Below are positions 6,141 to 29,818 of a stretch of 64,000 bases of DNA, in pieces. The notes under the pieces are model-generated. The model ran no database searches. It was not told where the DNA came from and saw nothing but the letters and a program-made list of their open reading frames with translations. Source of the DNA: Halorubrum hochsteinianum (GTDB lineage Archaea; Halobacteriota; Halobacteria; Halobacteriales; Haloferacaceae); NCBI RefSeq assembly GCF_023702125.1, contig NZ_CP098415.1, positions 682,001-746,000 of the forward strand, in the 5' to 3' direction. Both the position numbers and the translations under genes were made by a program. Position 1 is the first letter of the stretch, and each line of letters opens with the position of its first letter.

Positions 6141-6216
6141 TGGGCCTTGCCGGATTTGAACCGGCGATCAATTCGTTATGAGCGAATCGCTTTGAACCAG
6201 ACTAAGCTAAAGGCCC
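6141..6216 (-). tRNA. tRNA with CAT anticodon, probably tRNA-Ile2
   Basis: Read on the minus strand it folds as a complete, intronless tRNA: acceptor GGGCCTT/AAGGCCC with discriminator A, D arm GCTTAGTCTGGTTCAAAGC, anticodon stem ATTCG/CGAAT closing loop CTCATAA (anticodon CAT), and T arm GCCGG/CCGGC with loop TTCAAAT. CAT may be initiator Met, elongator Met or Ile2. Initiator features are absent. Haloarchaeal elongator tRNA-Met usually has an intron and this gene has none, and the G-rich acceptor with A73 fits Ile2, so I favour Ile2. No encoded CCA. Confidence 0.85.
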
Positions 6217-6258: not shown

Positions 6259-6726
6259 TTACCCCGATCGGAGCCGATCGAGGACGGCGTCAAGCCGGTA
6301 GTCCGCGTGCCAGTTCACGTTCGCCCGGTTGCCGTTCTCGGCAGGTTCGTACCTGATCGTCATCTGAGTCTCGGCCGTATCTTCGATCGGGACCAAGTAC
6401 ACCTCGTCATGGACAGGCACGTAAACCGCGAAGAGATCGACGCGTCCGTCGTATCCCTCCCGCTCGTATCCCGAACTCTTCGTCCGCGTGCTCCGGGTTC
6501 GGAACCGTACCGCGCCGTCGGTGGTCGCCTCAAACGCCGTCTTGATCTGGATGCGGTAGAAGTCACCATCTGACTCGATCGCGATATCGTACGGTTCGTT
6601 GTCATACCCGGGAACAAGCACGGAAACACCGCAATTCACGAACGCCGACTTTACGATCGCCTCAGCTGCCTGTCCCCGTTCGTGTGGCCCCTCGAGCGAA
6701 GCAAACCGTTCGCTTCGATTCGGCAT
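6259..6726 (-). CDS. PD-(D/E)XK nuclease-fold protein
   Basis: A 155-residue protein with a restriction-endonuclease-like core: YDIAIESDGDFYRIQIKTA (about residues 45-63) supplies the acidic residue, hairpin and QxK pattern of PD-(D/E)XK enzymes, after a helix with the early Glu (GQAAEAIVKSAF). It resembles the family labelled group I intron-associated PD-(D/E)XK endonuclease (PDDEXK_5 type). The frame stays open upstream to 6888, but that part would lie inside tRNA-Asn, so ATG 6726 (MPNRSERF) is used. It sits between two tRNA genes on the same strand. Role unknown; DNA cleavage or branch resolution is possible. Confidence 0.72.
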   Translation of the reverse strand: MPNRSERFASLEGPHERGQAAEAIVKSAFVNCGVSVLVPGYDNEPYDIAIESDGDFYRIQIKTAFEATTDGAVRFRTRSTRTKSSGYEREGYDGRVDLFAVYVPVHDEVYLVPIEDTAETQMTIRYEPAENGNRANVNWHADYRLDAVLDRLRSG

Positions 6727-6794: not shown

Positions 6795-6903
6795 CGCCGA
6801 AGCCAGGACTCGAACCTGGGACCGCCTCGTGACTGTGACGGTCGGGGGAAGTTCCGCCGAGCGTCGTAACAGCGAGGCGCTCTACCAACTGAGCTACTTC
6901 GGC
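6795..6903 (-). tRNA. tRNA-Asn (GTT) with a 36-nt intron
   Basis: On the minus strand: acceptor GCCGAAG/CTTCGGC with discriminator G, D arm GCTCAGTTGGTAGAGC, anticodon stem CCTCG/CGAGG and T arm CCAGG/CCTGG around TTCGAGT. The anticodon loop is interrupted at 37/38 by an intron occupying 6831-6866. The splice region forms a canonical bulge-helix-bulge: exon CTGT pairs with intron ACAG as the central 4-bp helix, flanked by 3-nt bulges (TAC and TCA), with GACG/CGTC continuing the intron stem. Splicing restores loop CTGTTAA, anticodon GTT. A CCATATCAAAT box lies about 30 bases upstream. Confidence 0.9.
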
Positions 6904-7063: not shown

Positions 7064-8473
7064 ATGGACGATGAGGAGGCGCTCGGCGAGGAGTTGGACG
7101 CGGTGCTGTCTCGCGTCCGCGAGCGCGTCCTCCCGGAGCCGGAGGAGCGCGAGCGGCTGAAGACGGCGAGCGCGGCGCTGACCGAGCGGACCCGCGAGGC
7201 GATAGCCGACCTCTCGGTCGACGCCGACGTGGTTCAGGTCGGGTCGACCGCGCGCGGCACGTGGGTCGCCGGCGACCGCGACATCGACCTCTTCGTCCGG
7301 TTCGACGCCGACCTCGACCGCGCCGAACTGGAGCAGTACGGGCTGACAGTCGGACACGAAGTCCTCCCCGACGGGCACGAGGAGTACGCGGAACACCCGT
7401 ACGTGAAGGGGAACTACGACGGGTTCGACGTCGACCTGGTGCCCTGTCACGACGTGGAGACGGCGGGCGACCTGGTGTCGGCGGTCGACCGCACCCCGTT
7501 CCACGACGCGTACCTCTCGGCGCGGCTCGACGACGACCTCGCGGCGGACGTGGTGCTTGCGAAGGCCTTCCTGAAGGGGATCGGGGCGTACGGCAGCGAC
7601 CTCCGGACCGAGGGCTTTTCCGGGTACCTCACGGAGCTGCTCGTGTTGGAACTCGGCGGGTTCGTCCCGCTCGTCGAGTCGGCCCGGAGCTGGCACCCGC
7701 CGGTGGAGTTCGACCCCGAGGGACACGCCGAGCGCACGTTCGAGGACCCGCTGGTCGTCGTCGACCCCACGGACCCGACGCGGAACGTCGCCGCGGTGCT
7801 GTCGGCGACGAACCTCGCGCGGTTCCAGCACTACGCCCGAGAACTGCTCGCGGCTCCGAGCGAGGCCCTCTTCGAGCCGGACGAGCCGGAGCCGCTCGAC
7901 CCCGGCGAGGTCCGCGACCACCTCGACCGACGGGAGACGACGCCCGTCGCGGTCGTCTTCGACGCCCCCGACCTCGTCGACGACCAGCTGTGGCCGCAGC
8001 TCCGCCGCTCGCTGGACGGGATCGTTCGCGGACTGAACGACCACGGCTTCGACGTCCTCCGGTCGCGGGCCATGACGGACGCGAGAATCGAGACGGAGAA
8101 TTCCGCCGGAACGACGCGAGCGGCGCTGTACGCGGAGTTGGAGGTGACGGAGCGACCGGCCGTCGAGCGCCACGAGGGACCGCCGGTCGCGGTCCGGAAA
8201 CACGCGGCGAGCTTCTACGAGTCGTACGTCGACGACGTCGACCCGGACACGTACGGCCCGTTCATCGACGGGGACCGCTACGTAGTCGAGCGCGAGCGCG
8301 AGTTCCACACCGTCAGGGAGTACTTAGAGAGCGACGCCGCGAGCGACGTGGCGCTGGGCGCGCAGGTGGAGTCGGCGTTCGACGACCGCGACGTGCTGGT
8401 CGGCGACGCGGTCGCGACGCTCGCGCCCGCGTTCGGCCGACCGCTCCGCGAGTTCTACGAGCCGCGACCGTGA
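7064..8473 (+). CDS. cca: CCA-adding enzyme, archaeal class I
   Basis: A 469-residue tRNA nucleotidyltransferase that adds or repairs the 3' CCA of tRNAs without a template. The nucleotidyltransferase signature GSTARGTW starts at residue 60, followed by DRDIDLF (catalytic Asp73 and Asp75), with the third carboxylate in FDVDLVP (about 120-122). The central domain carries KAFLKGIGAYGSDLRTEGFSGYLTELLV, typical of archaeal enzymes, and the C-terminal tail domain is complete. Length fits the archaeal class. It lies just after two tRNA genes that lack encoded CCA, consistent with need rather than proof of coupling. Confidence 0.95.
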   Translation: MDDEEALGEELDAVLSRVRERVLPEPEERERLKTASAALTERTREAIADLSVDADVVQVGSTARGTWVAGDRDIDLFVRFDADLDRAELEQYGLTVGHEVLPDGHEEYAEHPYVKGNYDGFDVDLVPCHDVETAGDLVSAVDRTPFHDAYLSARLDDDLAADVVLAKAFLKGIGAYGSDLRTEGFSGYLTELLVLELGGFVPLVESARSWHPPVEFDPEGHAERTFEDPLVVVDPTDPTRNVAAVLSATNLARFQHYARELLAAPSEALFEPDEPEPLDPGEVRDHLDRRETTPVAVVFDAPDLVDDQLWPQLRRSLDGIVRGLNDHGFDVLRSRAMTDARIETENSAGTTRAALYAELEVTERPAVERHEGPPVAVRKHAASFYESYVDDVDPDTYGPFIDGDRYVVEREREFHTVREYLESDAASDVALGAQVESAFDDRDVLVGDAVATLAPAFGRPLREFYEPRP

Positions 8474-28276: not shown

Positions 28277-29818
28277 TCAGGCGTCGCGCTCGTTCGGGCT
28301 GAACAGGTCGTCGTCTGACGGCGGGCCCTCCGCGGCCCGCAGCGACAGTTCGACCCGGCTCCCGCCGGCCTTGCTCTCGGCGATGTCGAGCGTCCCGCCG
28401 CCAGCGGTGACGATCCAGTTCACGTACCAGAGGCCCAGCCCGCTCGCGTGTTCGAGCGGCGTCTCCTCGCCGGTGAGGACGGCGCGCTCGGCCGGCGGGA
28501 TCCCCGGCCCGTCGTCGGCGACGACGAGCGAGACCCACGACTCGCTCGGCAGTTCCGCGGCCGAGACCCGGACTCGCGGTTCGTCGGCGTCGTTGTGACG
28601 GATCGCGTTGTCGACGAGTTCGGTGATCGCCTCGGGGAGGAACGAGACGGCGGAGACGACGAGCCCCTCGGGGACGTCGACCTCGACGGCGGCCCGGTCG
28701 TGGATCGCCGGGTCGAGCGATTCGAGCGCGGCGTCGACCGCGGGGGCGAGCGTGACGGGGCGCGGCGAGGGCCGCTGCGAGAGCAGCCGTTCCACCTTCC
28801 GGGACGTCTCGCCGAGGCGCAACAGCCGCTCGGCGGTGTCGACGACCCGCCGCAGTTCGGCGGTGAGGTCCGGGTCGTCGATCGACTCGATGGCGCGGGC
28901 GGTGAAGCCCGTGACCACGTTGAGGTCGTTCCGGAAGTTGTGGCGCAACACGCGCGTCAGCACCGCGAGCCGCTCCTCTCGCAGCGACGCCTCGGTGACG
29001 TCCTCGCCGACGCCGACCGCGCCGACGACCCGGTCGCCGTCGGTGACGGGGCCGATAGAGAGCCGGTAGGGGACGCGCTCGCCGGAGCGGGTGAGCAGCC
29101 GCGCCTCGCAGGCGGCGGGGTCGGCGTCGCGGTACACCCGTGAGAGCGCCTCGCTGACGGCGTCGCGCGTCGCCTCGTCGAACAGCGACGTGAGCGCCGT
29201 CCCGGACAGCGCCGCCGGCTCGTAGCCGGAGTCGGACGCCAGCCGGCCGTTCCACCGCGAGAGCGTCCCCTCCTCGGTACACCGGAACAGCGCGAGCGGG
29301 ACGGTCCCGGCGAGCGCGTCGACCAGCCGCCGCTCGGCGTCGCGCTCGTTCGCCGCCGCGACGCGCGCGGTCGCGTCCGAGAACCCGACGACGAGCCACT
29401 CGCCGCCGGCGATCGTCGCCGTGTGGAGCGCCGCGTCGACCCGGAGTCCGGGGTCGCCGATCCGGACGTCCCACTCGAACCGCTCGGTCCGGGCGTCGTC
29501 GGGGGCGGACCCCCCGGCGTTCGAAGCCCGGGCCGCGACCTCCGAGACCGGCTCCCCGGCGACGGTGCGGTCGGTCTCGCCCACGTCCGGGAGGCCCATC
29601 AGCGTCAGCGTGCCGCGGTCGTGGCCGAGGAGGTCGGCCGCGGCGGGGTTCGCGGCGCGGATCGCCAGCGTGTCGGGGTCGCACACGAGCGTTGCGGTCG
29701 GGACCGCCTCGACGAACGCCCGGAGGACCCCGGTCGCGTCGACGGTCCCGGTCGGGTCGGCGGCCCCGCTCGACGACGGCCGGTCGTCGGTCGGCGGGTC
29801 CCCGTCGCGGTCTCCCAT
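28277..29818 (-). CDS. PAS-domain sensor histidine kinase
   Basis: A 513-residue soluble kinase. Two PAS-like sensor segments (about residues 28-140, RAFVEAVPTATLVCDPDTLAI, and 150-270 with LALFRCTEEGTLSRWNGRLASDSGYEPAALSG) precede the phospho-acceptor box RVLRHNFRNDLNVVTGF (His near 291) and the ATPase domain with N box ITELVDNAIRHND, G box DDGPGIPP, and SGLGLWYVNWIV. No transmembrane helix is visible, so the signal is intracellular or comes through a partner. No response regulator gene lies alongside, which is usual for haloarchaeal kinases. Confidence 0.9.
   Translation of the reverse strand: MGDRDGDPPTDDRPSSSGAADPTGTVDATGVLRAFVEAVPTATLVCDPDTLAIRAANPAAADLLGHDRGTLTLMGLPDVGETDRTVAGEPVSEVAARASNAGGSAPDDARTERFEWDVRIGDPGLRVDAALHTATIAGGEWLVVGFSDATARVAAANERDAERRLVDALAGTVPLALFRCTEEGTLSRWNGRLASDSGYEPAALSGTALTSLFDEATRDAVSEALSRVYRDADPAACEARLLTRSGERVPYRLSIGPVTDGDRVVGAVGVGEDVTEASLREERLAVLTRVLRHNFRNDLNVVTGFTARAIESIDDPDLTAELRRVVDTAERLLRLGETSRKVERLLSQRPSPRPVTLAPAVDAALESLDPAIHDRAAVEVDVPEGLVVSAVSFLPEAITELVDNAIRHNDADEPRVRVSAAELPSESWVSLVVADDGPGIPPAERAVLTGEETPLEHASGLGLWYVNWIVTAGGGTLDIAESKAGGSRVELSLRAAEGPPSDDDLFSPNERDA

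Follow-up and report, generated by a model that had tools for sequence, protein, structure and literature searches.

Across Halorubrum, an ORF-less intron in the tRNA-Asn gene and an adjacent nuclease gene are inherited together, as judged from a comparison of 50 loci. This association points to the intron as a shield of the tRNA gene against the nuclease, and may explain the coming and going of such introns. The locus lies in a stretch of 64,000 nt from Halorubrum hochsteinianum, hereafter the window, and contains the following features (window coordinates):

6795-6903, minus strand: tRNA-Asn(GTT) gene, exons and intron (Rfam RF00005, 61.1 bits; ARAGORN with introns)
6867-6903, minus strand: exon 1 of tRNA-Asn, positions 1-37, with the anticodon GTT at 6870-6868 (sequence, Rfam match)
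6831-6866, minus strand: 36-nt bulge-helix-bulge (BHB) intron of tRNA-Asn, between positions 37 and 38 (fold; conservation in 74 distinct homologous introns)
6795-6830, minus strand: exon 2 of tRNA-Asn, positions 38-73 (sequence, Rfam match)
6259-6726, minus strand: PDDEXK_5 (PF11645) endonuclease of the I-Ssp6803I type, 155 aa (Pfam, E 2.5e-32)
6141-6216, minus strand: next tRNA gene, anticodon CAT, intronless (ARAGORN, Rfam)
7064-8473, plus strand: archaeal CCA-adding enzyme, a divergent neighbour outside the proposed system (profile search; present at every locus of the genus)

The last of these genes was used as the conserved flank for locus comparisons.

The Rfam tRNA model matched the minus strand from 6903 to 6795 with 61.1 bits, against a gathering threshold of 29, and placed the insert in the anticodon loop. 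ARAGORN, with introns allowed, reported a tRNA-Asn (gtt) with an intron of 36 nt; with introns disallowed, it missed the gene at 6795-6903. Both results agree with the isotype and with the 36-nt insertion at 37/38 that a first-pass annotation had proposed from the sequence, ruling out an isotype other than Asn. The perfect BHB claimed there was also recovered. Read from the sequence, the central helix pairs CTGT (6872-6869) with ACAG (6836-6833), the intron stem pairs GACG (6865-6862) with CGTC (6840-6837), and the bulges are TA/C and TC/A. An unconstrained fold of the precursor RNA recovered these helices and bulges, with a minimum free energy of -53.6 kcal/mol and a z of -4.06, and none of 200 shuffles was equally good. 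Of 74 distinct haloarchaeal tRNA-Asn introns at 37/38, 29-37 nt long, all retained the central 4-bp helix and 71 the 4-bp stem on the intron side, where compensatory changes include G-C to A-U. Because the helices are kept across these introns through compensatory changes, the BHB is evidently under selection. A pseudogene or a chance hairpin was ruled out by the fold and by this conservation, and a group I intron by the length of only 36 nt, by Rfam seeing only a tRNA at the locus and by the absence of a group I catalytic core.

We found no tRNA-Asn in the H. hochsteinianum genome besides this copy; splicing would therefore be needed for reading AAC/AAU codons. The genome encodes the splicing endonuclease EndA (PF01974, E 7.9e-23) and the RtcB ligase (PF01139, E 2.3e-158), which would, respectively, excise the intron and seal the exons. 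By these sequence features the insert is a canonical archaeal BHB tRNA intron, ordinary in kind and already covered by standard tRNA annotation. Elsewhere in the same genome, ARAGORN reported putative introns at 37/38 in tRNA-Glu(TTC) (34 nt; G000:C1:2361658-2361766, L032) and tRNA-Gln(TTG) (40 nt; G000:C1:608844-608956, L031), the former not being among the introns reported for Haloferax volcanii. A tRNA-Arg(acg) called by ARAGORN at 29162-29261 of the window lacked Rfam support and is probably spurious.

Of 392 haloarchaeal species genomes sampled across the order, 64 matched the pattern of an interrupted tRNA-Asn, and these belong to 28 of 95 genera; about 63 of the matches are real, that in G203 being a chance match that spans two genes. 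Intron-bearing genera include Natrinema, Natrialba, Natronorubrum, Halostagnicola, Halosimplex, Halorientalis, Haloferax, Halobaculum, Halopenitus, Haloparvum and Halorubrum. Of the 50 Halorubrum genomes with the locus, 23 carry the intron and 27 a precisely uninterrupted tRNA-Asn gene, and an intron at the same position was also found in other archaeal phyla, which together rule out an intron unique to the lineage of the window. The first-pass annotation had stated that the introns described in well-studied haloarchaea are mainly those of tRNA-Trp, elongator tRNA-Met and a tRNA-Gln. This holds for Haloferax volcanii, the species studied best, where introns are reported only in these three (PMC7714728), but the implied rarity of the Asn intron does not stand. 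With about 63 of 392 species genomes, the intron comes close to being common in haloarchaea, yet the majority are without it.

The intron underwent at least 14 changes of state in Halorubrum on a tree of the rpoB region, which is unlinked to the tRNA-Asn locus, and its sequences group by species clade and not by nuclease subgroup. Since intron sequences resemble those of their own species clade, these comparisons suggest an old intron, repeatedly lost or exchanged locally, while the nucleases swap faster. Relatives in Haloferax (L048, L050-L053) have tandem tRNA-Asn genes with the intron in none, one or both copies, offering a natural comparison within genomes, and one Halorubrum genome (G113:C1:676374, L145) has a second, divergent, intronless tRNA-Asn-like gene that is probably borne by an element.

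The nuclease gene, unmentioned in the first-pass annotation, lies between the tRNA-Asn gene and the tRNA gene with anticodon CAT, with its start codon 68 nt past the 3' end of tRNA-Asn. Its product scored 112 bits against PF11645 (cut-off 26.1), and its sole sequence match in the PDB, by phmmer, was I-Ssp6803I (2OST, E 8.4e-5), which itself matches PF11645; NCBIfam held no model for it. The AlphaFold model (pLDDT 84.8) had four chains of 2OST as its best Foldseek matches in the PDB (E 6e-9 to 4e-7, TM 0.61-0.72). The catalytic residues E22, D47, Q60 and K62, which include the unusual Q-x-K variant of the motif, are invariant. Profile, E-D-Q-K active site and predicted fold all identify the product as a nuclease of the I-Ssp6803I type. 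The nuclease also has the traits of a homing endonuclease, namely patchy presence, allele exchange between lineages, purifying selection and frequent decay.

Spacers that bear the nuclease are 400-500 nt longer than empty ones, the nuclease alone being inserted. This bears on a proposal by Randau and Soell, described in PMC4090602, that introns protect tRNA attachment sites from integration by viruses and plasmids. If it applied here, the nuclease would be a remnant or a guard of such elements. Although tRNA genes are integration targets, and repeats of 3' tRNA halves lie downstream of several haloarchaeal tRNA genes, we consider this explanation very unlikely, given the insertion of the nuclease alone, the lack of an integrase adjoining the tRNA-Asn gene in the window and the lack of any relative of the nuclease in the viral contigs searched. 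The 3'-half repeats (T arm and acceptor stem) occur at a spacing of about 120 nt downstream of tRNA-Pro, -Asp and -Lys (L027, L376, L434), a pattern that would arise if small elements had entered at the tRNA 3' end again and again.

We read all 50 Halorubrum loci, calling a nuclease intact from its open frame and length only. Among the 23 intron-bearing loci, 20 had an intact nuclease and three had none, as compared with three intact, five broken (stops, frameshifts, fragments) and 19 without among the 27 intronless loci. The intron is thus strongly associated with an intact nuclease ([[24,3],[3,20]], odds ratio 53, Fisher p = 6.6e-8) and also with any trace of a nuclease (Fisher p = 5e-5). 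Seen from the nuclease, the tRNA allele of its own locus was interrupted next to 20 of the 23 intact genes and uninterrupted next to three. To allow for phylogeny we used the rpoB-region tree (about 4.1 kb), on which the intact nuclease changed state at least 13 times. In nine independent pairs on supported branches, the nuclease followed the intron in 6.4 and did the opposite in none, a result only just significant in a sign test (median p 0.03, range 0.008-0.22). Broken genes made up five of the eight nucleases beside intronless tRNA-Asn, and none or one of the 20 beside intron-bearing tRNA-Asn (p 0.0006-0.003); the higher p value, 0.003, applies if the L136 (G148) nuclease, with its altered N-terminus, is counted as broken.

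At this locus, allele exchange has taken place without loss of a functional protein, as a divergent patch sits within nearly identical flanks and shows high dS and low omega. For instance, between the genome of the window and that of its nearest relative, the sister species G150, identity is 96-98% in the flanks and only 76-81% over the patch that begins with tRNA-Asn and runs through the nuclease gene. For this pair, dS is 0.82 in the nuclease gene and 0.058 in the CCA gene beside it. Pairwise comparisons usually put nuclease dS at 2 to 6 times that of CCA, and omega stays within 0.04-0.23 throughout.

PF11645 is present in 192 of 392 haloarchaeal genomes. In 106 of 108 loci examined, which were the best-scoring and hand-picked ones and not a random sample, a tRNA gene lies within 1.5 kb on the same strand, as compared with 4.9% of random stretches of that size containing a tRNA. 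The partners were tRNA-Asp(GTC) in 56 loci, -Pro(TGG) in 20, -Asn in 20, -Lys(TTT) in eight and -Arg(TCT) in one, plus one tRNA array. This constant neighbourhood would suit a PDDEXK protein that acts on RNA, for example in the turnover of excised introns or in tRNA quality control, and not on DNA. We judge that role extremely unlikely: the nearest relative of known structure cuts DNA as a homing endonuclease and has identical catalytic E, D, Q and K residues, many of the nucleases lie beside intronless tRNAs, and most intron-bearing species have no nuclease.

All nuclease-linked tRNA-Lys genes (8/8), and the tRNA-Arg gene, contain an intron at 37/38, whereas intact PF11645 genes also adjoin intronless tRNA-Asp and tRNA-Pro genes. 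In a scan of the family to which Halorubrum belongs, nine of 22 intron-bearing tRNA-Lys(TTT) genes had an adjoining nuclease (eight intact, one broken), as did none of the 127 that lack the intron (p = 6e-9, or 1.4e-4 when pooled within three genera). For tRNA-Asn in this family outside Halorubrum the figures were four of 18 and none of 41 (p = 0.007); the nuclease-bearing loci of Natrialba, Natronorubrum, Natronococcus and Salinibaculum had been located via the intron search and were excluded as a test. A nuclease is missing from the vicinity of many tRNA-Asn and tRNA-Lys introns.

On the nuclease tree, the tRNA partner required only seven changes, the smallest number that eight groups allow, with each lineage keeping to one partner. 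Support was 100/98 for Asn, 100/99 for Lys, 99/84 for Asn plus Lys and 94/85 with Arg added, delimiting an intron-associated clade. Within the Lys lineage the gene lies upstream of the tRNA in some genera and downstream in others, always with the intron; therefore, a locus frozen in place does not by itself account for the loyalty to a tRNA. The Asn, Lys and Arg tRNAs read codons starting with A and have T36-A37-A38 in common, as does tRNA-fMet, although three kinds are too few as proof.

Several further arrangements were observed. In the majority of the other haloarchaea, PF11645 genes adjoin tandem intronless tRNA-Asp(GTC) genes or lie between them (L376-L445, most Asp loci), while in others they adjoin tRNA-Pro(TGG). 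Several Halorubrum members (L299, L301, L302, L304-L306, L315) have a tRNA-Pro(TGG) unlike the copy in the genome of the window, followed by an apparent short ORF on the reverse strand and then by a PF11645 gene. Another PF11645 gene (G142:C3:892848, L324) lies within a dense tRNA array of viral- or plasmid-like look.

Haloarchaea recombine readily. The intron could thus be neutral, dating from early haloarchaea and lost many times, with the nuclease as an unrelated passenger and the association arising from shared ancestry and recombination at a tRNA hot spot. Ready recombination, the wide occurrence of the intron with and without a nuclease and its clade-wise sequences are in keeping with this account, which we nevertheless regard as improbable: the association survives the independent-pairs test on an unlinked tree, it is seen again at tRNA-Lys, where none of the 127 intronless genes departs from it, and the nuclease lineages are tRNA-specific.

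We lean, on balance, towards a coupling of the BHB tRNA intron to a free-standing, tRNA-specific homing nuclease, with cleavage, protection and homing as its presumed steps. In an intronless tRNA-Asn gene, the DNA target would be the anticodon region, which the intron would split at T36-A37/A38, leaving the tRNA gene of the nuclease-bearing cell uncut. An intronless allele, whether it entered such a cell from outside or arose in a daughter by intron loss, would be cleaved and converted to the haplotype with intron and nuclease. In this way the nuclease may keep, and probably spread, an ORF-less 36-nt intron with no mobility of its own, and decay or deletion of the nuclease gene would free the intron to be lost. 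The BHB intron would serve as the immunity interruption of the host allele, like the group I intron for I-Ssp6803I. Such protection would explain why intact nucleases accompany the intron, why intronless genes have nuclease remnants as neighbours and why introns elsewhere persist after the nuclease has gone. The clade-wise intron sequences fit retention of the intron better than repeated joint homing of intron and nuclease. Conversely, the three intact-looking nucleases beside intronless tRNA-Asn (G109, G119 and G150, two of them from the nuclease subgroup of the window copy) count against this model, since cutting would be expected if the anticodon region were the target. Likewise, the intact Asp- and Pro-linked nucleases at intronless genes mean that the intron is not a general requirement. 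For these cases, it would be reasonable to place the target at the 3' end of the tRNA or in the spacer, where the nuclease gene would itself be the interruption.

The same could apply at tRNA-Asn, where the nuclease would target the 3' end or the inter-tRNA spacer and be protected by its own insertion, the intron, 100-170 nt away, being co-converted without protecting anything. This would account for the intronless Asp- and Pro-linked nucleases and for the three tRNA-Asn exceptions, and the exchanged patch does span tRNA and nuclease together. We take it seriously but think it less probable, because it does not predict the concentration of broken nucleases at intronless genes, and because the tRNA-Lys nuclease, downstream or upstream depending on the genus, always comes with the intron. 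Intron sequences that track species clades and not nuclease subgroups also speak against it.

Extending the coupling of intron and nuclease beyond tRNA-Asn, we are evenly divided on whether haloarchaea contain a family of free-standing PD-(D/E)XK homing endonucleases whose lineages keep to a single tRNA each (Asp, Pro, Asn, Lys or Arg), with the BHB intron as the immunity element in the Asn/Lys/Arg clade. The selfish nuclease would there addict its host to the intron, driving intron maintenance and spread. The gain, upkeep and loss of archaeal tRNA introns is an open question. If the proposal is true, a DNA nuclease with intronless tRNA genes as its specific target is a concrete agent, open to testing, that makes an inert 36-nt intron worth keeping; intron-nuclease partnerships extend from self-splicing to protein-spliced tRNA introns, and haloarchaeal tRNA loci become a natural experiment in which sister species differ in intron and nuclease. 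A literature search, with thin coverage of subscription journals, found no description of tRNA-linked haloarchaeal nucleases or of their coupling to introns; as weak evidence of novelty, this makes the coupling at tRNA-Asn an apparently undescribed variant of the intron-nuclease partnership.

The intron resembles those of Haloferax volcanii tRNA-Trp, -Met and -Gln (PMC7714728) in its position at 37/38, the 4-bp central helix, the two 3-nt bulges and the presence of EndA and RtcB. It differs in its Asn isotype, in its shortness, a box C/D guide not being expected in 36 nt, and in an occurrence that differs from one sister species to another, along with that of a nuclease gene beside it. With I-Ssp6803I (PDB 2OST) the nuclease shares Pfam family, catalytic residues, fold and a tRNA gene interrupted in the anticodon loop. 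However, the I-Ssp6803I gene is contained in the self-splicing group I intron of cyanobacterial tRNA-fMet, whereas here a free-standing nuclease gene follows the tRNA, whose 36-nt BHB intron is protein-spliced. In phages, a neighbouring free-standing homing endonuclease can mobilise an ORF-less intron, a process known as collaborative homing. The term is used in PMC3984707. The Halorubrum pair likewise joins an ORF-less intron to an adjacent free-standing endonuclease with a proposed target at the intron insertion site, although on an archaeal chromosome, in a tRNA gene, with a BHB intron and a PD-(D/E)XK enzyme, and with homing that is here only presumed. In Thermoproteales, the same intron occurs across different tRNAs (Fujishima 2010, described in PMC4090602), and a review describes the mechanism of transposition of archaeal tRNA introns as still unknown (PMC4090602); unlike these, the haloarchaeal introns occupy one position per tRNA and come with a candidate nuclease. 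The mobile BHB introns of archaeal rRNA also combine a BHB intron with a homing endonuclease but, unlike the Halorubrum tRNA-Asn system, have an rRNA host and an intron-encoded enzyme of the LAGLIDADG type.
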